In this document: one piece after another, positions 501-11,838 of the stretch
Layout: each line of letters begins with the position of its first letter
Numbering within the stretch: position 1 is the stretch's first letter
Assembly: GCA_002315335.1 (NCBI GenBank)
Contig: DCGW01000010.1
Coordinates: 1-36,423 of the forward strand
DNA length: 36,423 nucleotides
Reading direction: 5' to 3'
From: Firmicutes bacterium UBA1768
GTDB lineage: Bacteria > Bacillota > Clostridia > Peptostreptococcales > Anaerovoracaceae
The notes under the pieces: model-generated
The model's database searches: none
What the model was told of the DNA's origin: nothing
What the model saw: only the letters and a program-made list of their open reading frames with translations
Position numbers and translations under genes: made by a program

Positions 501-1295
501 AACATTATCGAATTTTTCCATCATAGGAGATGCAAAAGCGGCGAGAATAATCTTAGTCGCACCCTCATTTATTAACACCTTCGCGCAGGCATTAGCCGTG
601 CTTCCTGTAGTTACAAGGTCGTCTATCAGAAGAATTCTCTTTCCTATGAACATCTCGCCGTCTACAACAGCAAATGCTTCTCTAATATTTGTTCTCCTCT
701 CTTCTGCAGACAGACCGCTCATTGGTCTTGTCATTTTTGTCCTGATCAGCTTTCTTTTTAATACAGGCTTGTCTCGCAGGCGTCCGATTTCCTCAGCTAA
801 CAGCGTCGTCTGACAAAAGCCCCTCAGCTTTTCCTTTGCCCTGAACATCGGCACCGGAACTATCAGGTCAAAGCCGCCCGCTTCAACAAGTGCTCCATCC
901 ATAATTTCTGCCATAGGCCTTGACATCCAGGCATTGCCTCCATATTTATACTTATAAATGATAGACTTTACACCGTCCGTATACACGAGGCAGGCAAGGC
1001 CCTTGTCGAAAACAGGTTCATGAGCTCCGCAGTTTTTACACAGGTCACCGGTTTTTCCCTCAACAAAGCTGCCGCACCTCGGACACGTTGGCGGCCTCCT
1101 ATATAAAATACCCTCCCTGCAGCTATCGCAGAGAGAGTATTTTTCTTCCTTCTTTATGGGTTTTGAACAGCTGATACAATATAAGTTTTCCGGGAACAGC
1201 ACCTCAAAAATACTATTCCTTATTAATCTTTTTTTCAAAGCCTCACTCCTTCCAAAAAATGGAAAACAGGCGAATTTTCGTTCACCCGTCCTCAT
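498..1295 (-). CDS. comF: ComF family phosphoribosyltransferase-fold protein
   Basis: 265 residues, typical for ComF/GntX. The N-terminal third carries two zinc-ribbon-like cysteine sets (C40, C43, C56, C59 and C71, C74, C86, C89). The rest is a type I phosphoribosyltransferase fold with the PRPP-binding signature ILLIDDLVTTGST at 221-233. In Bacillus ComFC is needed for DNA uptake in transformation, probably on the cytoplasmic side with the ComFA helicase; the family also exists in species not known to be competent. No comFA is next to it. Instead it overlaps the end of recD2 by four bases (ATGA), so its translation is probably coupled to that helicase, which gives it a DNA-processing context. 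The ribosome site is weak, as expected for a coupled start. Confidence 0.92.
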   Translation of the reverse strand: MRTGERKFACFPFFGRSEALKKRLIRNSIFEVLFPENLYCISCSKPIKKEEKYSLCDSCREGILYRRPPTCPRCGSFVEGKTGDLCKNCGAHEPVFDKGLACLVYTDGVKSIIYKYKYGGNAWMSRPMAEIMDGALVEAGGFDLIVPVPMFRAKEKLRGFCQTTLLAEEIGRLRDKPVLKRKLIRTKMTRPMSGLSAEERRTNIREAFAVVDGEMFIGKRILLIDDLVTTGSTANACAKVLINEGATKIILAAFASPMMEKFDNV

Positions 1296-3508
1296 TCATA
1301 TTCTAAAAACACCTTTAACCTATCACAAAGTCCCGAGTTCCTGTGGGCAATAGTGTTATTGTTCACCATCATTTCCATAATTGCCGGATTTCCTACCAGA
1401 ACAACAAGCTGCTTCGCCCTGGTCACCGCGGTATAGAACAGGTTCCTCGTTGCCATTATCGGAGGGATCCACATCATCGGCATAATAACAACCGGATACT
1501 CACTGCCCTGACTCTTATGTACCGTTACCGCATATGCAAGCTCCAGTTCATCAATAGTCAGCGCATCATATACTGCAAGCCTGACCTCGTCAAAAACTAC
1601 AGATACTTCATTATATTCAGTATCTATGTTCATTATATATCCTACGTCGCCATTGAAAACACCCTTGCCGTCAGACATATCCTTCAGGTTTTTCCACTCC
1701 ATGTCGTAGTTGTTCCTGACCTGCATAACCTTGTCGCCGGGTCTGAAAACCTTGTTCTTAAACTCCTTTTCCGGAGCACCCGCCAGTCTCGGATTAAGAA
1801 CCTCCTGCAGCACCGCATTAAGATTGGCAGTACCAAGCGGCCCCTTTTTCACAGGACTCAAAACCTGACACCTGCGCACCGGATCAAAATCCTCCACGAA
1901 GGTTCCGAGTCTCCTTGTACAAAGCTGCTTTATGGTATCAACTATTTCCTCCGCTCCATTCTTTTTCAGAAAAAAGAAATCCTTTTCCTTCTCATTATAA
2001 TACGGATTCTCCCCACGGTTTATCCTATGGGCATTTACAACTATCAGGCTTTCCTCAGCCTGCCTGAATATTTTCTCCAATCGAACCGTAGTAATAATTT
2101 CACTGTCAATTATATCGCGGAGCACATTTCCCGCTCCCACCGGCGGCAGCTGATCGGCGTCTCCCACAAGCACAAGCCTGGCATCAGCCTTTACCGCCCT
2201 CAGCAATGCATCCATCAGAGAAATATCTATCATAGACGCTTCATCGATTACTATTACATCTTCATCAAGCGGATTGTCCGCATTTCTCGAAAACGACATA
2301 AAATCCCTACCGTCATCATCGTAGGAATATTCCAACAAACGATGAATGGTCTTAGCCTCATAACCCGAGGTTTCGGTAATTCGCTTGGCCGCCCTCCCAG
2401 TTGGAGCTGCAACCGCAGTATTGAAGCCGCCCTCATCAAACATCCTGAGAATGGTATTTATTATAGTAGTTTTGCCCGTGCCCGGTCCTCCCGTTATTAC
2501 ACAAACGCCGTTTTCACAGGCAGTTTTAACAGCATTTTTCTGCTCAGCCTCAAGCTTAATCGAAAGACTCGCCTCTGTTTTCGCGATAAGCCCCTCCACA
2601 TCGGCCATCACCGCTTTCTGTTTTCCGCCGTTAAGCCTCACAAGGTTTTTGCACACATGGGTTTCCGCAAGGTACAGCCCCATTAAAAACACGCAGTTTC
2701 TGCCATTGAGGTTTTCAATTCTGACCTGACCCTTAAACGGCAGGTTTTCCAGAACCTCTCCAATGCGTACGCTGTCAATATTCAAAACAAGTCCCGCCTC
2801 TTCGATAAGCTCCTCCGTTGCCAGAAATGTATGACCGCTTCCGGTTTCTCTCGTAAGAATATATTTAAGTCCTGACTCTATTCTAAAGTCGCTGTCCCTT
2901 TCTATCCCAAGCTTTTCCGCAATCGCATCGGCCATCTTGAAGCCAATCCCCCAAACATCATCAACCAATCTATATGGGTTTTCTTCTATTTTTGCAATCG
3001 AATCGGCACCATACTGCCTGTGAATCTTTGCGGCAAGAGAAACAGAAATTCCATGCTTCTGGAGAAACATAACAAGCTGCCTTAGTTCTATCATATCGCT
3101 AAAGCTTTCTGTTATGCGGGCAAGACCCTTTTCACCAATACCGCTCACCTCGAGCAGTCTTTCCGGTGTCTTTTCTATCACCTCAAAGGTTTCCTCACCA
3201 AAGGCCTCAACAATGCGGGCAGCCATTTTTTTGCCTATGCCCTTAACAGACCCCGAGGCAAGAAAAGCCTCAATCGCCTCAGCATCACCAGGCGCAGCCT
3301 CCTCATATGATTCAAAGGAAAACTGCTCTCCATATGTGGGATGAATTACCATTTTTCCCATTAATTGGTATTCACAACCCAGGCGCGGCATTATCATATT
3401 TCCGACAACAGTGATTTCGTCCCCGTCCTTGTCTCTGACTTCACCTACCATATAGTAGTTGTCCTTATTATAGAAGATAATTTCACTAAGCTTGCCGCTT
3501 AACTCCAT
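1292..3508 (-). CDS. recD2: RecD2-type ATP-dependent DNA helicase
   Basis: 738 residues, the usual RecD2 size; RecD2 acts without RecBC and moves 5'-3'. The N-terminal part (about 85-195) holds tandem helix-hairpin-helix elements (GSVKGIGKKMA, VSGIGEKGLA, VWGIGFKMA). The superfamily 1B motor follows, with Walker A GGPGTGKTT at 340-348, DEAS at 422-425, GDADQLPPVGAG at 449-460, and the late motifs AVTVHKSQGSE and FYTAVTRAK near the C-terminus. All motor motifs look intact. The family is linked to replication-fork and recombination repair. ATG at 3506-3508 is preceded by AAAGGAGAG. It begins 29 bp after yhaM and overlaps comF, so the three are likely co-transcribed. Confidence 0.96.
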   Translation of the reverse strand: MELSGKLSEIIFYNKDNYYMVGEVRDKDGDEITVVGNMIMPRLGCEYQLMGKMVIHPTYGEQFSFESYEEAAPGDAEAIEAFLASGSVKGIGKKMAARIVEAFGEETFEVIEKTPERLLEVSGIGEKGLARITESFSDMIELRQLVMFLQKHGISVSLAAKIHRQYGADSIAKIEENPYRLVDDVWGIGFKMADAIAEKLGIERDSDFRIESGLKYILTRETGSGHTFLATEELIEEAGLVLNIDSVRIGEVLENLPFKGQVRIENLNGRNCVFLMGLYLAETHVCKNLVRLNGGKQKAVMADVEGLIAKTEASLSIKLEAEQKNAVKTACENGVCVITGGPGTGKTTIINTILRMFDEGGFNTAVAAPTGRAAKRITETSGYEAKTIHRLLEYSYDDDGRDFMSFSRNADNPLDEDVIVIDEASMIDISLMDALLRAVKADARLVLVGDADQLPPVGAGNVLRDIIDSEIITTVRLEKIFRQAEESLIVVNAHRINRGENPYYNEKEKDFFFLKKNGAEEIVDTIKQLCTRRLGTFVEDFDPVRRCQVLSPVKKGPLGTANLNAVLQEVLNPRLAGAPEKEFKNKVFRPGDKVMQVRNNYDMEWKNLKDMSDGKGVFNGDVGYIMNIDTEYNEVSVVFDEVRLAVYDALTIDELELAYAVTVHKSQGSEYPVVIMPMMWIPPIMATRNLFYTAVTRAKQLVVLVGNPAIMEMMVNNNTIAHRNSGLCDRLKVFLEYE

Positions 3509-3537
3509 AAGCCTGCTCTCCTTTTGGGGGTGGTAAA

Positions 3538-4518
3538 CTAATCATTCAATACACTATCTTTAAACTTGTAGAGCTGCCTGTTTTCCATGCTCCATATTTT
3601 TTCCGAGAAGCTTCCCGGTTCAACGCCGCGAAGATTTTTCTCCACATCGTACAGCCTTGCATCCATCATGTCAAGGTGGTGCAGAAGCTCTGCCTCGGCA
3701 AACATAGGCTTTTTAGGGCTTCCGAATTCCGGCTCATAGTGGTGAGAAAGAATCATATGCTCTATTCCTATCTTCTTTTCCTCAGCCATTCCTATTTCAA
3801 CCGCAACCTCTTCTATCATTTTTATTCCCTGAATTATGTGCCCAAGCATCTGCCCCTCAAAGGTATAGGTTCCGGCAACACCGTTTTCGTCCGAATCAAT
3901 TTCATATATTTTTGCAATATCATGCAGAATAACGCCTGTGAAGATGTAGTCGCGCCTGATAACCGGATAAATATCGCATAAAGCCTCAGCCGAAAGAAGC
4001 ATTCTGTACACGTGATACATCAGGCCGCCTCTGATTGCGTGGTGGTTTTTTGATGCAGCAGGATAGTAAAGCAGCCTATCCTTGTGCCTGTCCATCATAG
4101 TAAGAGTCAGCTTCTTCAATTCCGTATCTGTTATTGTCTCAGCAGCCTGTCTTATTCTGTCAAACATTACACTTCCCTCAAGCGGCGCAGATGGAACCAT
4201 TTTGGACAGGTCCACAGCATCCTCCTCGGTAGGCATTCGGAATTTAATAATTTTCATCTGGTTGCTGCCGTTGTACTCGTTGATAAGCCCCCTGACCTTT
4301 ACAATGTCTCCCGCTTTGACATTTTTTATTTCAGCAGCCTCGGGAAGCTTTAAGTCCCACAGCATTCCCTGTATTTCTCCAGTTTTGTCTCCAAGAAATA
4401 CAGACGCATATTCACCGCCCTTGTTCGAAGTCCTTATAGTACATGACTTTACAAGGAGAAATGCATCAACCCTGTCTCCCGGCTTATAATCTATTATATT
4501 CTTTTCCATTAATTCCAT
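3538..4518 (-). CDS. yhaM: YhaM-like 3'-5' exoribonuclease (OB fold + HD domain)
   Basis: 326 residues. The N-terminal OB-fold (about 10-97) contains VRGLINEYNGSNQMKI. A metal-dependent HD domain follows, with H160, H169, the H199-D200 pair in GVILHDIAKIYEI, GH at 226-227 and the H259-H260 pair. This OB-HD arrangement and length match YhaM, a 3'-5' exonuclease of low-GC Gram-positives that trims RNA ends and also acts on single-stranded DNA. ATG at 4516-4518 is chosen because AGAGG lies just upstream; a second Met three codons in is less well placed. It heads the yhaM-recD2-comF group. Confidence 0.92.
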   Translation of the reverse strand: MELMEKNIIDYKPGDRVDAFLLVKSCTIRTSNKGGEYASVFLGDKTGEIQGMLWDLKLPEAAEIKNVKAGDIVKVRGLINEYNGSNQMKIIKFRMPTEEDAVDLSKMVPSAPLEGSVMFDRIRQAAETITDTELKKLTLTMMDRHKDRLLYYPAASKNHHAIRGGLMYHVYRMLLSAEALCDIYPVIRRDYIFTGVILHDIAKIYEIDSDENGVAGTYTFEGQMLGHIIQGIKMIEEVAVEIGMAEEKKIGIEHMILSHHYEPEFGSPKKPMFAEAELLHHLDMMDARLYDVEKNLRGVEPGSFSEKIWSMENRQLYKFKDSVLND

Positions 4519-4610: not shown

Positions 4611-4838
4611 TCATTTTGTCTCGGCTATTTCGTTTAGAATATCTCTTAACTTAGCCGCCTCTTCTTCGGAAAAGGTAAGTCCCTTTCCCATTTTCTTGTG
4701 GTCGGGAGCCCAGTCTCTTATGTCAAGCTTAGGCTCTCTTCCGTTCCAGCTGACATAATTGACCTCTTTTCTCCAGCCCTTATCGCCCTCATAAAGGACT
4801 CCTACATTTTTTGTGATTTCAAATCTGAATTCTTCCAT
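4611..4838 (-). CDS. YdbC/PC4-like single-stranded nucleic-acid-binding protein
   Basis: A 75-residue protein beginning MEEFRFEITKNVGVL. It has the YVSWNGREPKLDIRDWAPDHKKMGKGLTF core of the bacterial YdbC family, which shares the PC4/p15 coactivator fold; lactococcal YdbC binds single-stranded DNA. The C-terminal helix (EEEAAKLRDILNEI) is as expected. The start at 4836-4838 is supported by GGAGG four bases upstream. A longer in-frame opening to 4913 would run through a near-consensus promoter at 4885-4913 and is rejected. It is flanked by its own promoter and terminator, so it is probably monocistronic. The role in this organism is not shown. Confidence 0.88.
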   Translation of the reverse strand: MEEFRFEITKNVGVLYEGDKGWRKEVNYVSWNGREPKLDIRDWAPDHKKMGKGLTFSEEEAAKLRDILNEIAETK

Positions 4839-4884
4839 AGTTCCTCCGGTAATAAAAGACTCTCCGGCGATTTGCTGTTTCCAT

Positions 4885-4913
4885 ATTTTACCATTTATTG
4901 AAAAAATATGCAA
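4885..4913 (-). promoter_or_regulatory. promoter of the YdbC-like gene
   Basis: Minus strand TTGCAT (4908-4913), exactly 17 bp, TAAAAT (4885-4890), with TGG directly before the -10. A start near 4878 gives a leader of about 40 bases and fixes the short start of the gene. Confidence 0.75.
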
Positions 4914-4924
4914 CCACTTTTTCT

Positions 4925-6868
4925 CTATAAATCTATTCTGTCCTTGCCTATTCCAACTATGAAACCAAAATCGCTCACCGCAATATTATATGCTGCGATG
5001 CTCGCCATCACAAGCTGATTTGCCTGGTAAACCGAAATCTGAGCCTCTCTGACATCCGCCATAGTTGCCATTCCGTTTTCGTACATCAGACGCTTTACAG
5101 CATAGCCATCCTGTGCAAGCTCTGCTGTCTTGTTTGCAGACTCAACCGCATCATACTTATTAAGCATATCAATATATGCGCTTCTGACCTCTATCTCAAG
5201 GTTTTTAAGGAGGGCATCCTTTGAATTCTCAAGAGTTTTTACCGTGTTCTGAGCTGTCAGATAATCCGAACCCGACTTGTCGGTGTCTTCCTTGCCATCA
5301 AGGTGATTTAGATTAAGCGCTGCCATTTCGCAGCCGTAGTCAACAGCAAGCACGGTAAGACGATTTGCCTTTGCAGCACCGATGTATTCCTCAACAGACT
5401 TTGAAGGGAATTTTACCGCAGCCAGACTGTCTGTGAGCGAGATGTTGGTCTGAACATCATTCCCTAAGAGGATGTTGAAGCTCATAATTGCCTTTTCAAG
5501 GGCTGCCTTAGCCTCCTTGACAGTCTGCTCTGCCTGTATAACCGCGGCCTCCTGAGCCTTTACTTCTATTTTTGCGACAGTTCCCACCTCATACTTGAGG
5601 TTAATAATATCCATTAAATCGTTCTGAACCTCAAGGTTATCCTCATTTACCTTTAGATTTTCTCTTGCCTGAAGAACTCCGTAGTAAAGGGAAACAGCCT
5701 GGCTCTCAATAGCATTAAGCTCCGCCTTATTGTTGTTGTCAATGTTAGCCTCACAGAAGTCTCTCTGCCTGACCGCAAGCCCTCTGCTGAATTCAAGCTC
5801 CGGAATCTGTTTTTCGATTTCGGCGATCCCGTCCTGAATTGTCGGTATGCTTTCCTCGGCTTCTTCAAACTGGGACTTTGTATCGCTGTACTTTCCGGTG
5901 AAAAATGCTGCAACTAAAAGCAGCTTCTTCTTTGCCAGAGTCTCGTTAATAGTTTGCAGCGTTTCCTGAAGCTCTGCCTTTTTATCCTTCAGCTGCTGAA
6001 TGCCGTCATCAACATCGGCAATGTTCTCTTTATATTTGGCAAGCTTTGCCTCATCTGCCGCCTTATTTGCATTGGCGGTATCCGCAAGAACCCCCTCAGT
6101 CTGCATCAGCGAAACAGCTTTTATCAGGGAAAGCGAAACTCCGTCACCGTCAATCCACTCGTATCTTCCATCGTTATAAATATGCGCTTTGGTTGACGAC
6201 GCAGGCAAAGCCTTCTTTCCTTCTTCCTGCAGCCTTTCAAGAACAGCTGAAACCATCAGCGCAGCATCTCCTCTGGTTGCCGGAGCATTGTAGTTCAGGT
6301 CCGCATCACCGTTTTCTTCAAGCACGTTTAATACTTCCGTGTATATTCCAAGCTTTTCGGCCATAATCCGGTAGTTGTCCGGCCAGCTGCCTGCGAGGTC
6401 GTCCTCATCAAAGCCGCAGCCTCTTACCAGCATTGCAGAAAGCTCGTTATAGGTTACATTTGCAGATGGTTTGAAGGTTTTATCCTCATATCCGGTAATA
6501 ACACCCATTGCACTTGCATAATTGATACTCTCATAAGCCCATGAGTCTTCGGAAACATCGGAATATCCGCAATCCTTTGCATCATTCAGCTTGTCTGCAC
6601 TCGGGCCCATCGCTCTGGTTACAACGGCACAGATTTCTTCCCTCGAAATCGGGTTCCCCGGTTTAAAGCTTCCGTCAGGATAACCGCTTATTATCGATTG
6701 TTCGGCAAGCTTTTCAACCACAGTTTCGTACGGAGAACCATTCAGATCAGAAAAAGCTCCCGCAAAAGAAACAGTTGTCACGCTGAGCGACATGGTTATC
6801 ACCAGTGCTGCCGAGAGAAAAACCGCTATCGCCTTTCTTCCGGTTCTTGTTCCGCTAATACTCTTCAT
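4925..6868 (-). CDS. SLH-domain protein with TolC-like helical efflux-duct repeats
   Basis: 647 residues from the ATG at 6866-6868, which has AAGGAG upstream. A Sec signal peptide covers residues 1 to about 36 (cleavage near SFA|GAF). Three S-layer homology domains follow, at about 38-87, 101-150 and 162-211, with the motif position reading SREE, TYNE and TRGD. Long amphipathic helices occupy about 270-415, then two TolC-family repeats (about 382-468 and 551-641) with tip motifs YEVGTVAKIEV (426-436) and YENGMATMADV (596-606). These match the outer-membrane efflux family. At both points where TolC inserts membrane beta-hairpins there are only short loops (about 313-331 and 522-536). Known: SLH domains bind secondary cell-wall polymers. 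Inferred: a wall-anchored helical conduit for the RND pump encoded upstream. It is last in the operon, 51 bp after tetR; a small GCGGA-UUU-UCCGC hairpin (6884-6896) lies just before its ribosome site. No terminator is obvious after its stop. Confidence 0.88.
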   Translation of the reverse strand: MKSISGTRTGRKAIAVFLSAALVITMSLSVTTVSFAGAFSDLNGSPYETVVEKLAEQSIISGYPDGSFKPGNPISREEICAVVTRAMGPSADKLNDAKDCGYSDVSEDSWAYESINYASAMGVITGYEDKTFKPSANVTYNELSAMLVRGCGFDEDDLAGSWPDNYRIMAEKLGIYTEVLNVLEENGDADLNYNAPATRGDAALMVSAVLERLQEEGKKALPASSTKAHIYNDGRYEWIDGDGVSLSLIKAVSLMQTEGVLADTANANKAADEAKLAKYKENIADVDDGIQQLKDKKAELQETLQTINETLAKKKLLLVAAFFTGKYSDTKSQFEEAEESIPTIQDGIAEIEKQIPELEFSRGLAVRQRDFCEANIDNNNKAELNAIESQAVSLYYGVLQARENLKVNEDNLEVQNDLMDIINLKYEVGTVAKIEVKAQEAAVIQAEQTVKEAKAALEKAIMSFNILLGNDVQTNISLTDSLAAVKFPSKSVEEYIGAAKANRLTVLAVDYGCEMAALNLNHLDGKEDTDKSGSDYLTAQNTVKTLENSKDALLKNLEIEVRSAYIDMLNKYDAVESANKTAELAQDGYAVKRLMYENGMATMADVREAQISVYQANQLVMASIAAYNIAVSDFGFIVGIGKDRIDL

Positions 6869-6919
6869 TGTTTTCTCCTTGCCGCGGAAAATCCGCATTC
6901 TATCGGTCAATAATTAATA

Positions 6920-7564
6920 TCAGAATCCTATCCCTTTGACAATATAGTCCACTATCATTTCCCTGTCTATTGCAAGCCCCTTGGAGTAAATGGCTTCTCC
7001 GCTTCCGGCCTGCTTATCGTTAATAAGGTTAAGCATATATGATGCAATCAGAAGCACCGTGACTGAAGTTGCTTTTTCAACCGCCGCCTCATCCATGGGC
7101 GGCAGTCCCGACCTTTCTCTTCTTTTAGCCTCATCGCTTATTATTGTCCTTATTCTTTCCCACTGGTCATCGGTCATCTCCTTGACAACCTTCATTGCAC
7201 CTGCAGAATCCACATCGGTGTTTTCCACAACCTGATTAAAAAACATTTTTGCATAAAGACCATATCTCTCAATCATTTTTTCCGAGCCGCTCAGGTACAC
7301 ATCCAGTCGTTTTCTTATTCCGGCCTCTTCGGTCAGCATAGCCGCTTCCGAGTAAAACTCCATGTAATCTACAAGCACTATATCCTTGATAACATCAAGC
7401 ATAAGGTCCTCTTTGCGGGAAAAGTATTCATATACGGTTCCCTTTCCTATGCCAGCCCTCATTGCAATATCTATAATTCTGGTTCCGTCATAGCCCCGCT
7501 CCTTGAACAGGTCTATTGCAGCCTTCATAATCCTAAGCCGTTTATCACTTTTCAACTTCGCCAT
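6920..7564 (-). CDS. TetR/AcrR family transcriptional repressor
   Basis: 214 residues from ATG 7562-7564. The N-terminal helix-turn-helix (about 14-60) has the classic order: MKAAIDLFKERGYDGTRI, then IAMRAGIGKGTVYEYFSRKEDL. The C-terminal ligand-binding domain is divergent, as usual. The gene overlaps the end of the RND gene by 20 bp and precedes the SLH-TolC gene, so the repressor is made from the operon it probably controls; candidate operators lie at 11867-11880 and 11925-11938. The start is uncertain: AGGAGG touches this ATG directly, which is too close for normal use, whereas a TTG three codons later (7553-7555) sits nine bases from it. A much longer in-frame start at 7651 lacks support. 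Confidence 0.9.
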   Translation of the reverse strand: MAKLKSDKRLRIMKAAIDLFKERGYDGTRIIDIAMRAGIGKGTVYEYFSRKEDLMLDVIKDIVLVDYMEFYSEAAMLTEEAGIRKRLDVYLSGSEKMIERYGLYAKMFFNQVVENTDVDSAGAMKVVKEMTDDQWERIRTIISDEAKRRERSGLPPMDEAAVEKATSVTVLLIASYMLNLINDKQAGSGEAIYSKGLAIDREMIVDYIVKGIGF

Positions 7565-10500
7565 CCTCCTTTGCCCACTCAAGCTGGAGTGCCGCAGTTC
7601 TCTCTGCAATAAGCTTTCTTCTTTCCTTACGAGCAATCTCCTTATCATCAATAATCGAATAAATTACCGGTATAAGGAAAAGAGTTACTACAGTCGAAGC
7701 GACAAGGCCTCCGATGATGGAAATGCCCATAGGCGCCAGCATTTCTCCACCGTCTCCAAGACCAAGCGAAAGCGGAATCATTCCTATTACAGTGGTGCCG
7801 CAGCTCATCAATATAGGCCGCAGCCTCATCGCACCAGCCTGGACAAGCGCCTCATCTCTTCCCATAATTTTCTTATTTTGATTGATAAACTCTACAAGCA
7901 ATATCGAGTTGTTTACTACAGTCCCGACCAGAATAATGAGGCCGAGGAACGAAGTCATGGAAAGCGCTGTGTTTGTTACGAAGAGCGCCAGGAAGGCCCC
8001 CGACATGGCAAACGGTATGGCCATAACAACTATGAACGGCATAGTAATGCTTTCAAACTGAGCCGCCAATAAGAGGAATACCAACGCAACAGCTACAATA
8101 AGCGCTAACAGCATGTCGGAAAATACATCGTACATCTGTTCCTCAAGGCCCTCGGTATTATAATAGTAGCCCTCAGGGAAAACATAGTTTTCTACAACAG
8201 CATTTACCTTGTCAGCTGACTTGTTCAGGCTTCCCTTAACATCTACGTTGAGGCAGATATAGTTTGCCTGGTTGTTATGCTTGATTACCGACGGCGAATT
8301 ATCGTACTTAAAGGTAGCAATTTCGCTGACAGGAACGGCGGTTCCGTAGTTGCCGGTAATAAGAATCTGCTTCATGTTCTCGACAGACTCTGCATATGAA
8401 TCATCGAGTGAAAGCTTAACAGACATTGTGTCTTCATTTATAGTAACATCTGTACTCGATGTGCCGCTTAGCGCATTTGACAGACCTGTTGCAAGCTGGT
8501 ATGCGGTTACTCCGTACCTTGACGCAGCGCCTCTGTCTATAACAACCTGAATTTCAGGGTTACCCTCCTCGACATCGAGAGAAGCAGCATCAACACAGTC
8601 GAGCTTGCTAACCTCTGCAAGGAGTTCGTTTCCTATCTCATTAAGAGTTTCATCGCTCTTACCCATTATGTTATAGCTCAGGTCATGCGAAGCAAACATG
8701 GACTCAATGGAAGAGCTTCCGCTTACGTTTATTTCCGCTCCGGTAATGTCTTTACTCCACTTTTCTATCTGCTTTGCCACTTCCTTTGTTGACCTGTCTC
8801 TGTCACCAATATCCTTGAGAAGAACAGTAATAGTAGCTCCGTTTGATGCTGACAGCGCGGAGAGCGACCCGGTGGTAAGTGAAATATGATCAACCTCGTC
8901 TATTCCCATACAGTATTCTTCTACTGTTGTCATTATTCTGTCCTTGTCTGCAAGAGAGGTCCCATAAGGGGTGTTAACCGTAATCGAAACGGAACCTTCA
9001 TCCATTTCAGGAAGAAGCTCCCAGCCGACTATTACCACGAGCAGGCAGGACGCAAGAAACGCAATTACGCAGCCGATAATGAATTTCTTTCTGTGATGAA
9101 GCGCCTTGTCAACATAAACCTTGTAGTTTTCCTTCACCCTTTCGATAAAGTCCATGAACCTCGGAATAAACCTGTACTTGTAACGCTTTGTTCCTACCAT
9201 CAGGTACTTATTTGAAACGTTTGCCTCAAGCAGCTTGGAGCTGAACATAGGAACAACCGTAAGTGCAACCACCAGAGAAGCTAACAGCGCAATAATGATA
9301 GTAAAGCAGAAATCACTGAATATCAGTGAAGCCATTCCGTTGCTGAGTGCAATCGGCAGGAATACAAGTACCGTGGTCAGAGTCGAAGCTATTATGGCAC
9401 CGAAGATTTCCTTTGAGCCATCCATTGCGGCCTCTTTTGCACTGTTTCTCGACTGCCGCAGCCGGAATATGTTTTCCAAAACTACAATGGAGTTATCTAC
9501 AAGCATACCGACTACCAGAGTCAGTGAGCAGAGCGTTATCAGGTTTAAGGTCATTCCTCTCCACTGCATAAGAGCAAAGGTCGCAAGCAGGGAGGTTGGA
9601 ATTGAAATCGCAATTACCAGAGTGCTTCTCACATTTCCGAGGAAGAGGAGAACCACAAACACAGCAAGAAGCGCACCGATGAGGGCCGATTTGGCAACCG
9701 ATGATATTGAACTGTTGATATAGTCTGACCCATCGTAACCTACCGTAAAGGTTAAATCGGGATATTCTTTTTCTAACTCTTTTATGGTTTCTGCCACATT
9801 TTCGCAGACATCAACTGTATTTGCGTCAGACTGCTTGGAAACCATTATTCCTATGGCGGTATTTCCGTCAATTCTGGAAATATCCTCCTGGTCAGCATAT
9901 TCTCTGGTTATGGTTGCAACATCGCCGAGCCTTACTATCGAATAGTCACTGACCATAAGCGGTACATTCTTTATATCTTCTACGGAGTCAAACTCACCCA
10001 TGGTTCGCACTATCAGCTTGTTGTCTCCCTTTCCGACCTCACCGCTCGGCAGGTTAATATTTTCCGCAGCCAACAGAGATGCTACGGTTGTCAGGTTAAG
10101 ACCATATGAAGAGAGACTCTGCTGGTTAAATTCTATAGCTATCTCCTCATCAACACCGCCCTGCACGCTCACGCTTGCAACTCCGGAGCTCCTTTCAAAA
10201 TATGAAAGAAGGTCATCCTGAACTATAGTGTTGAGCCTCGAAAGGTCCATATCACCGGAAACATATATCTGCATTACCGGAAGCATGTTCATATCGAGCT
10301 TCATTATCATCGGCTCCGAGCAGTCGTCCGGCAGGTAGTCAGAAATCATTCCAACCGCCTCCCTCATATCGAGGGTGGCAAAATTCATGTCGGTATCCAC
10401 GTTGAATTCCAAGAGTACAATGGAAGAATTTTCCATCGAATAAGAAACCATCTCTTCGAGGTTTTCCACCGAAGCGAGGGCCTGCTCAACAGGCTCTGTA

Positions 10501-10688
10501 ACCATGGACTCAACCTCTGCAGGAGATGCCCCGCCGTATGTAGTCATTACCAGCGCATAAGGCATCTGGATATCCGGCATTAAATCCTTCGGAATCGACA
10601 CTAATGAGAATATTCCTACTACGACAACCATCAACGTCAGCATTATGGTCGCCACAGGTCTTTTTATAGCAATTGATGATAGATTCAT
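7545..10688 (-). CDS. RND family efflux transporter (AcrB/SwrC-like permease)
   Basis: 1047 residues, full length for a hydrophobe/amphiphile RND pump. It starts MNLSSIAIKRPVATIM, with the first membrane segment at about 12-32. A large porter loop follows (about 35-330), membrane segments at about 334-490, a second loop after FIIGCVIAFLASCLLVVIVG, and a C-terminal membrane bundle with VNNSILLVEF. The proton-relay motif in the fourth segment reads GMLVDNSIVVLEN: one aspartate (D398) is kept, while the second of AcrB's Asp pair is Asn (N399). The family exports drugs, bile salts, lipids or peptides using proton flux; the substrate here is unknown. It starts two bases after the adaptor stop codon (TAAAATG) and overlaps tetR, so translation is coupled along the operon. 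Confidence 0.95.
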   Translation of the reverse strand: MNLSSIAIKRPVATIMLTLMVVVVGIFSLVSIPKDLMPDIQMPYALVMTTYGGASPAEVESMVTEPVEQALASVENLEEMVSYSMENSSIVLLEFNVDTDMNFATLDMREAVGMISDYLPDDCSEPMIMKLDMNMLPVMQIYVSGDMDLSRLNTIVQDDLLSYFERSSGVASVSVQGGVDEEIAIEFNQQSLSSYGLNLTTVASLLAAENINLPSGEVGKGDNKLIVRTMGEFDSVEDIKNVPLMVSDYSIVRLGDVATITREYADQEDISRIDGNTAIGIMVSKQSDANTVDVCENVAETIKELEKEYPDLTFTVGYDGSDYINSSISSVAKSALIGALLAVFVVLLFLGNVRSTLVIAISIPTSLLATFALMQWRGMTLNLITLCSLTLVVGMLVDNSIVVLENIFRLRQSRNSAKEAAMDGSKEIFGAIIASTLTTVLVFLPIALSNGMASLIFSDFCFTIIIALLASLVVALTVVPMFSSKLLEANVSNKYLMVGTKRYKYRFIPRFMDFIERVKENYKVYVDKALHHRKKFIIGCVIAFLASCLLVVIVGWELLPEMDEGSVSITVNTPYGTSLADKDRIMTTVEEYCMGIDEVDHISLTTGSLSALSASNGATITVLLKDIGDRDRSTKEVAKQIEKWSKDITGAEINVSGSSSIESMFASHDLSYNIMGKSDETLNEIGNELLAEVSKLDCVDAASLDVEEGNPEIQVVIDRGAASRYGVTAYQLATGLSNALSGTSSTDVTINEDTMSVKLSLDDSYAESVENMKQILITGNYGTAVPVSEIATFKYDNSPSVIKHNNQANYICLNVDVKGSLNKSADKVNAVVENYVFPEGYYYNTEGLEEQMYDVFSDMLLALIVAVALVFLLLAAQFESITMPFIVVMAIPFAMSGAFLALFVTNTALSMTSFLGLIILVGTVVNNSILLVEFINQNKKIMGRDEALVQAGAMRLRPILMSCGTTVIGMIPLSLGLGDGGEMLAPMGISIIGGLVASTVVTLFLIPVIYSIIDDKEIARKERRKLIAERTAALQLEWAKEDGEVEK

Positions 10689-10689
10689 T

Positions 10690-11838
10690 TTAGTATACCT
10701 TTACTTCTTCGCCGTCCTTGACATACTGCTGTCCGGAAATTACTACTGTTTCTCCGGCTTTTATTCCGGAAAGAATTTCAACCTCTTCTCCGTTGTCTAT
10801 GCCCGTAGTAACCTTCACAATCTTAGGAATATTGCCGTTGAGTACAACCGCAACGCTTTCCCCGTTCTTAGTGAATACCGCCTGGGTCGGAACTGTTACA
10901 GCCTGCTCTACCCTATCAGTCTTTACCTTAACCTCAGCAAACATACCTGACTTAAGCGAGCTGTCGCCATTGTTGATGCTGATTTCCACAGGATAGGTGG
11001 CTCCTCCGGTCTCAGGAACCTGTCCAACCGAAATGATTGTTCCCTTATATGTTTTGTCAAGTGAGGATACATATATTTCCACAGTATCGCCAACGTTCAT
11101 CTTGAGCGCCATTTTTTCCGTAACCTTAGGGTTAATGCTCAAATCAGAGGTGTCCGAAATCGCACCTACCATTGATTGACCTACCACGCCTCCGACGGTA
11201 ACATTGAAGGAAGACAGATATCCGCTTATCGGAGCGGTTACCGTGTAATAGGCCTTTGAAGCCGAGGCCGACTTGTATCCGCTTGCCGCATTGTTGTAGG
11301 TTGACTTTGCAGCCTCGTATTCTGCGAGCGAAATAGCTCCAGCATCATAAAGCACCTGCATTCTGTCAAGGTTTGCCTTAGCCTGCTTAACCCCTTCCGC
11401 CGCCTGAGTTACCTGAGTGTCTGCAGCCAGGCTGTCTATAGTGAACAGAACCTGTCCTTTTTTTACATAATCTCCGTTCTTGGCATTAACAGAGGTTACC
11501 TTTCCGGCCATAAGCGGAACCACGTAGACCTGTTCTCCAGCCTCTATCGCCGCGGTTATTGGAGCTTCCGTGTAGATTTCGCTTTCCTGAGCCACGGCAG
11601 TTTTTACGCTTATCGCAGAAGTACCCGTATCCTCGTCTTCCGCAAAAAAGTGGTCATATACTCGCCATCCGATAAGCGCAAGCACCGCAATTATCACCAC
11701 TGCAATTATTATCTTCTTTCCTCTTTCCTTTTGAAGCTCTGCAAGAGCTGCCTGTGCCTGTGCAACTCCGCCCTGTGCTTCGCCTTCAGCTTTAGTGGTT
11801 TCCTCTATTTCAATATTGTTTAACTTTTCGTTATCCAT
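10690..11838 (-). CDS. RND membrane-fusion (periplasmic adaptor) protein
   Basis: 382 residues. An unusual 41-residue cytoplasmic tail, rich in Ala, Gln and Glu, precedes one membrane segment (about 43-60). Then come the barrel-sandwich half-motif YVVPLMAGKVTSVNAKNGDYVKKGQ (about 105-129), a short helical hairpin (about 138-195), the second half-motif VTAPISGYLSSFNVTVGGVV, and the beta-barrel and membrane-proximal domains. Within the hairpin R159, L163 and S170 fit RxxxLxxxxxxS exactly, the motif with which AcrA/MacA-type adaptors meet the tip of TolC. ATG at 11836-11838 follows AAGGAG. It is first in the four-gene efflux operon, behind a consensus promoter and flanking palindromes. Confidence 0.94.
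   Translation of the reverse strand: MDNEKLNNIEIEETTKAEGEAQGGVAQAQAALAELQKERGKKIIIAVVIIAVLALIGWRVYDHFFAEDEDTGTSAISVKTAVAQESEIYTEAPITAAIEAGEQVYVVPLMAGKVTSVNAKNGDYVKKGQVLFTIDSLAADTQVTQAAEGVKQAKANLDRMQVLYDAGAISLAEYEAAKSTYNNAASGYKSASASKAYYTVTAPISGYLSSFNVTVGGVVGQSMVGAISDTSDLSINPKVTEKMALKMNVGDTVEIYVSSLDKTYKGTIISVGQVPETGGATYPVEISINNGDSSLKSGMFAEVKVKTDRVEQAVTVPTQAVFTKNGESVAVVLNGNIPKIVKVTTGIDNGEEVEILSGIKAGETVVISGQQYVKDGEEVKVY

Follow-up and report, generated by a model that had tools for sequence, protein, structure and literature searches.

The window analysed here, a 36,423-nucleotide stretch of DNA from Firmicutes bacterium UBA1768 (contig DCGW01000010.1, positions 1 to 36,423; contig C92 among those of the host genome), carries on its reverse strand a gene whose product joins an SLH triplet to a TolC-type OEP domain. 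The likely start is the ATG at 6868, an aligned ATG also being used by full-length close relatives (alignment A1). Residue numbers below are those of the longer ORF, in which this ATG is residue 15; the original prediction for this gene counted from the ATG. The features of the gene are:

4925..6868, minus strand: SLH-TolC gene, encoding 647 aa when read from the ATG at 6868 and 661 aa from the TTG at 6910 that opens the ORF
6761..6868, minus strand: putative signal-peptide-like N terminus, residues 15-50, with a low-pLDDT hydrophobic helix at 25-41
6224..6760, minus strand: SLH triplet, residues 51-229 (PF00395, 92 bits)
4943..6139, minus strand: TolC/OEP domain, residues 258-656, alpha body only
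5876..5932, minus strand: hairpin-1 site, residues 327-345 (KKKLLLVAAFFTGKYSDTK), a coiled-coil tip with a turn at 339-340 and no strand
5786..6004, minus strand: coiled-coil insert around the hairpin-1 site, about residues 303-375 (bounds approximate)
5573..5587, minus strand: repeat-1 tip loop, residues 442-446, in VGTVAKIEV
5261..5305, minus strand: hairpin-2 site, residues 536-550 (HLDGKEDTDKSGSDY), with a loop at 539-547
5063..5077, minus strand: repeat-2 tip loop, residues 612-616, in NGMATMADV

By sequence and fold the protein belongs to the OEP family, without that family's outer-membrane barrel. Its PF02321 score (72.3 bits) is above the Pfam gathering cut-off of 22, and it has the two repeats of paired helices, the inner tip loops and the TolC fold of an OEP, with 321 residues matched onto TolC in a VIA alignment; its scores against TIGR01844 (TolC family outer membrane proteins, 42.8 bits) and TIGR01845 (NodT, 42.9 bits) are under the NCBIfam cut-offs of 225.15 and 210.05, respectively. 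The helical body is conserved, as are the tip loops of both repeats. Three SLH repeats with the known fold are present; as read from the sequence, not all of their motifs are TRAE, which we take to be the canonical form. Compared with E. coli TolC of AcrAB-TolC (1ek9), the protein has no beta-hairpin in either repeat, and has two additions: an N-terminal SLH triplet, and a coiled coil that lengthens repeat 1 at its outer end.

The absence of both outer-membrane beta-hairpins, the central claim of the original prediction, is borne out by predicted helices and by residue counts. A single-chain AlphaFold2 model, built from a shallow alignment of 15 rows, has a mean pLDDT of 83.1, with means of 76-97 for 10-residue blocks from residue 261 on. 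Site 1 is helix-turn-helix (helices 274-338 and 341-441, turn 339-340), as is site 2 (helices 518-538 and 548-611, loop 539-547), so that the second site is the short loop between helices that had been proposed at residues 522-536 of the shorter numbering. The only strands of at least three residues in the TolC part, 258-260 and 490-492, lie outside both sites. The model of an SLH-less relative (L013) had the same outcome at higher confidence (pLDDT 88.9, pTM 0.80). The suggested check for beta-strands at the two positions thus found none in either protein, and the idea of short amphipathic strands hidden at these sites was rejected on this ground. The two hairpins that each protomer would contribute to an outer-membrane barrel are absent: there are no strands, site 2 is too short, and site 1 is helical.

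The counts were made between fixed helix anchors on either side of each site, in an alignment of 84 rows, and repeated with the tandem rows described below added. At site 2, the window group, made up of fusion proteins and close relatives, has 34-41 residues in each of its 24 rows, the SLH-TolC protein itself having 41, and all 28 measured OEPs from Omp85-negative Bacillota have 31-41; the numbers are 75-118 in 30 Omp85-positive OEPs (L038-L067, the 30 best PF02321 scorers, and so a set biased towards full-length hairpin proteins), 76 in two other controls, and 90 in E. coli TolC. Across the 84 rows the two groups of lengths do not overlap, and the shortness of site 2 is not chance. The 28 come from 30 genomes searched, leaving out L083, whose ORF is cut at 240 aa, and L068, with no match by the local profile at E 0.01; in L051, L052, L058 and L067 the best local-profile match fell on a second ORF of 212-242 aa, truncated by the end of the locus, and the longer ORF was measured.

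Site 1 was also expected to be a short loop, and here only the absence of the hairpin stands: the SLH-TolC protein has 115 residues between the anchors, against 78 in E. coli TolC, because the coiled-coil insert sits there, and since this insert is helical, the hairpin is still absent despite the long span. The insert varies in length among relatives and is missing in P0007-P0009, which accounts for the wide range in the window group (63 to 147 residues, with 63-67 in the smallest fusion relatives). Omp85-negative rows have 47-62 residues in 24 of 28 cases, the remaining four having 67, 70, 83 and 116, and Omp85-positive rows have 75-116. Could the missing hairpins be an artefact of the alignment or of the AlphaFold2 input? 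The 15 rows of the latter are few enough to raise the question, but it is scarcely credible given that the conserved tip-to-tip distance, which is independent of any model, is 170 residues in the SLH-TolC protein and 218 in E. coli TolC, and given the clean separation of the site-2 lengths. In the model, helix 341-441 exceeds helix 548-611 by 37 residues, which with a rise of 1.5 Angstrom for each residue would come to about 55 Angstrom. The apex of the coiled coil (residues 327-345) is strongly hydrophobic (LLLVAAFFTG), as it is in P0002, and could be a membrane- or protein-contact tip.

Is there an outer membrane for such a protein to cross? The host genome is a 1.53 Mb draft in 94 contigs, 90.65% complete, so that absences from it are not absolute. 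Profile searches of it gave no match to Omp85 or LpxC, and no other OEP gene over the cut-off, leaving SLH-TolC as the sole one; they did find a CsaB pyruvyl transferase (TIGR03609, 275.6 bits over a cut-off of 213.1). CsaB modifies the wall polymer bound by SLH domains. In the host's family, Omp85 is matched in one of 99 genomes, a 550-contig draft, and in none of the 56 genomes of at least 90% completeness and at most 5% contamination. LpxC is the weaker of the two markers, matching 4 of 14 control genomes compared with 7 of 14 for Omp85. These results point to a monoderm envelope. That an outer membrane exists, missed through the incomplete genome or unusual proteins, with the barrel formed in another way, is very improbable: the draft state of the assembly, the single family genome with Omp85 and a marker search of two markers leave some room for it, but 98 of the 99 family genomes, including all the good-quality ones, gave no Omp85 match, LpxC has no match in the host, and neither modelled protein has a strand at either site.

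Upstream of the SLH-TolC gene, on the same strand, are a regulator gene and the other parts of a predicted pump:

6920..7651, minus strand: TetR-family regulator between the RND and TolC genes (PF00440, 55.8 bits); start codon uncertain, ORF overlapping the end of the RND gene
7545..10688, minus strand: full-length RND permease of the AcrB/AcrD/AcrF family (PF00873, 800 bits, profile positions 2-1020 of 1021)
10690..11838, minus strand: membrane fusion protein (MFP), or periplasmic adaptor (TIGR01730, 186.9 bits, cut-off 94.9)
11329..11364, minus strand: RLS-type hairpin-tip motif of the adaptor, RMQVLYDAGAIS, adaptor residues 159-170

The adaptor and permease genes thus adjoin the duct gene, and as in pumps of the AcrA/AcrB type (TIGR01730, PF00873) a full-length permease and an adaptor with an RLS-type tip lie in one gene run; unlike in those pumps, the host has no Omp85 or LpxC match, and the permease scores under the NCBIfam cut-offs for multidrug RND permease subfamilies. 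The order MFP-RND-TetR-TolC is common to L005-L009 (with a truncated TolC gene in L008 and L009); L004 starts inside the RND gene. More widely, when one locus was taken from each of 20 of the 30 Omp85-negative genomes, 12 of the 20 had MFP and RND genes beside the hairpin-less OEP. The same test gave no RND match in the other eight, four of which have an adaptor-like ORF, one (L116) with a tip-type motif. Nor was there an MFP or RND match in the roughly 8-10 kb upstream in the close relatives L011 and L012, which lack SLH domains. The role of the duct is therefore not fixed to this operon.

The RLS-type adaptor motif has a role in docking to TolC. E. coli K-12 AcrA has RYQKLLGTQYIS at 128, with spacing equal to that in the host adaptor, and the pattern R-x3-L-x6-S occurs in all 18 RND-linked adaptors (the window, five fusion loci and 12 others), compared with 4.2% of shuffled sequences. 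Adaptors from OEP-negative genomes (20 listed genomes of the 84 without an OEP match) have it in two of 20 distinct ORFs, one of them (L140) with a sequence unlike the tip motif, in a control that is not like for like, adaptor types being mixed and many not RND-linked; among the three RND-linked adaptors of this set one has the motif (L148). This locus (G123:C52, 569-7548) combines RND pump genes, an RLS-type adaptor and a TetR gene in a genome without an OEP match, so the motif does not strictly need TolC. No TolC gene was found on the L148 contig; downstream there is a secreted-looking 415-aa ORF with a signal-like start, a DUF5667 protein, which might stand in for the duct.

Taken with the domain make-up, these observations suggest a single-membrane bacterium whose RND efflux pump probably has the SLH-TolC protein as its wall-anchored exit duct. 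As a trimer the protein would form a TolC-like helical tube without a membrane barrel, its inner tip loops docking tip-to-tip on the alpha-hairpins of the upstream-encoded adaptor, which in turn would sit on the RND permease. The SLH triplet is predicted to bind pyruvylated secondary wall polymer; the wall or S-layer, taking the place of an outer membrane, may then hold the tube, which would open through it. Our guess is that the coiled coil added at the outer end, which relatives have in different lengths, sets length or wall contacts.

Another possibility is that the TolC domain is no longer a channel and instead fastens the RND-MFP complex to the wall, as an anchor or as a stabiliser of the adaptor, with substrate leaving at the adaptor. 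The SLH domain is itself an anchor type, the outer-end insert might plug a tube, and many Gram-positive transporters need adaptors though an outer membrane is typically absent, according to the accessible text of one paper (PMC4338810). This seems unlikely all the same: a pure anchor would need neither the two conserved tip loops and helical body, nor the 321 residues alignable to TolC, nor the adaptor tip motif in 18 of 18 cases. A barrel-less partner would explain, where present, the conserved hairpin of Gram-positive adaptors, called puzzling in the same text (PMC4338810).

The SLH fusion is a local variant. Alignment A1 (n = 15) has OEP in all members and SLH in 14, the exception being a partial protein (P0013) without precomputed SLH, whereas none of the 28 OEPs from Omp85-negative Bacillota (A3) has SLH. 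The A1 profile matches 54 of 99 genomes of the host's family, some in the SLH part only. In one of the 28 A3 members a hairpin-less OEP is fused with Cu_amine_oxidN1, which may be a further type of surface domain.

The hairpin-less OEP is far more widespread. OEP was found in 215 of the 299 genomes of a phylum sample and Omp85 in 74; about 143 genomes, by a comparison made by eye, are OEP-positive and Omp85-negative, and 30 of these (29 family codes) were picked by hand. In 29 of the 30, OEP matches begin only after about profile position 62, past most of the hairpin region, the exception being one weak piece (profile 1-35) in G109. The remaining genome, G176, the source of L068, has a hairpin-less match on contig C340 and also a full-length one on C160 (L151), beside an MFP-like ORF, MacB-like ABC ORFs and LytS/LytR-like ORFs; from its sequence, C160 is a probable contaminant.

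Hairpin loss nevertheless proved not to be exclusive to Omp85-negative genomes, an idea overturned by low-scoring matches and by the profile ranges of Omp85-positive genomes. OEP is present in 19 of 20 Omp85-positive genomes with OEP matches that scored low or fell outside the matches listed, and 20 loci (L182-L201) in 18 of the 19 were opened, G281 and some further match clusters being left unopened. All 20 loci pair a hairpin-less with a hairpin OEP, which is not an unselected rate: they were picked after the match table had been seen, and most already showed both kinds. The hairpin-less members have 37-41 residues at site 1 and 37-39 at site 2, and the hairpin members 54-147 at site 2, the class limit there being set at 50. 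The paired genes overlap, often by a few bases, or lie within 50 bp of each other in 19 of 20 loci; in L191 they are separated by 2.4 kb. In 16 loci the hairpin-less gene comes before its partner. Two examples, L185:4719-7384 and L184:4405-7042, both come with an RND gene, and most of the 20 have an adaptor nearby. Among the higher-scoring Omp85-positive genomes, 6 of 14 picked by hand also have an ORF that is hairpin-less by profile range. The cut second ORFs of L051, L052, L058 and L067 (family f52) are OEP-like and lie beside a hairpin OEP; that of L051 (G211) is hairpin-less by profile range, making another tandem. The hairpin-less form is thus spread more widely in Bacillota and does not single out monoderms. 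The original prediction was right that the helical body is kept while the barrel hairpins are gone; its explanation, which ties this to the lack of an outer membrane to cross, is only partly supported and needs correcting, barrel-less OEPs also occurring beside barrel-bearing ones in Omp85-positive Bacillota.

When did the two kinds separate? A tree of 75 rows (9 of 84 dropped as near-copies) needs a single hairpin change, with an SH-aLRT of 99. Adding the tandem partners gave a tree of 106 rows (19 of 125 dropped as near-copies) with nine changes, in which long branches meet, and a single hairpin clade was rejected (p-AU 0.0009). The smaller tree, contradicted by the larger one and its AU test and with long branches present, was accordingly dropped as proof of a single split: one ancient split is not established, and repeated loss is possible. 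It is possible, and compatible with the exit-duct reading, that barrel-less OEPs are an old paralogous line already at work in diderm Bacillota next to barrel-bearing OEPs, where they may have formed a duct segment in the periplasm, with monoderms keeping only the barrel-less line, so that the hairpins were not removed by loss of the outer membrane. The pairing in the opened loci, 19 of 20 of them overlapping or within 50 bp, the six higher-scoring genomes with a hairpin-less ORF and the one-change tree speak for such an origin; the selection of those loci after their matches were seen, and the nine changes, rejected clade and meeting long branches of the larger tree, speak against it. Extending the idea, we tentatively picture barrel-less TolC homologues as an ancient Bacillota duct module, which diderms encode head-to-tail with barrel OEPs as if the duct segment and outer-membrane port were separate parts, and of which monoderms may have kept the duct only; by fusing an SLH anchor to it, the window lineage might have let the pump outlive the loss of the outer membrane, membrane insertion being swapped for wall anchoring.

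Part of this picture is already in print. As far as the accessible text goes, Stubenrauch et al. (2022; PMC8809574) described 12 TolC-like proteins from five families of monoderm Firmicutes, many in operons with other pump parts, noted an "intriguing omission" in the barrel of a modelled C. difficile TolC-like protein together with the absence of BAM, and proposed an S-layer site; one figure legend mentions an operon with two putative TolC-like genes. OEP family membership, hosts without BAM and, in many cases, an operon with the other two pump parts are common to those proteins and ours. Their Phyre2 model, of one protein, is still described as having a hydrophilic barrel part, whereas length counts and model alike show the SLH-TolC protein to lack both hairpins. 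The present work also measures the pattern in many families, and our protein carries a fused SLH triplet, a fusion not mentioned in the text accessible to us. The SLH fusion, the measured Bacillota pattern and the barrel-less OEPs beside barrel-bearing ones in Omp85-positive Bacillota are what is added here; no report of an SLH-TolC fusion or of a barrel-less/barrel OEP tandem was found in the literature searched, whose coverage takes in few subscription papers. OmpM of diderm Firmicutes similarly uses an SLH domain to tether a channel protein to the envelope, judging from the sections available (PMC5007114), but there the SLH domain is joined to a C-terminal outer-membrane porin, and in the present protein to a barrel-less TolC, in a host that gives no sign of an outer membrane. 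Available portions of other papers name a PF02321 protein as one of the transporter proteins in the surfaceome of Desulfotomaculum reducens (PMC4137172), describe HAE-1 pumps as of Gram-negative origin (PMC8277102) and place the TolC proteins of V. parvula in its outer membrane (PMC5491611).

Transitions between one- and two-membrane envelopes are an open question in bacteria, and a pump with its outer-membrane part absent, a wall-anchor domain in its place and its gene set otherwise intact would be a gene-level trace of such a change. With the tandem OEPs of Omp85-positive Bacillota, phylogeny and structure can be used to test a particular order of events. In annotation, a TolC-family call in a Gram-positive genome is not to be taken as evidence of an outer membrane.

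Downstream of the TolC gene (1292-4518 and 4611-4913), the window has genes for a RecD2-like helicase and an OB-fold/HD protein, which come after the TolC gene in an order shared by L004-L007 and L014. In the window, a small PC4-domain gene (PF02229, 44.2 bits) lies in between.
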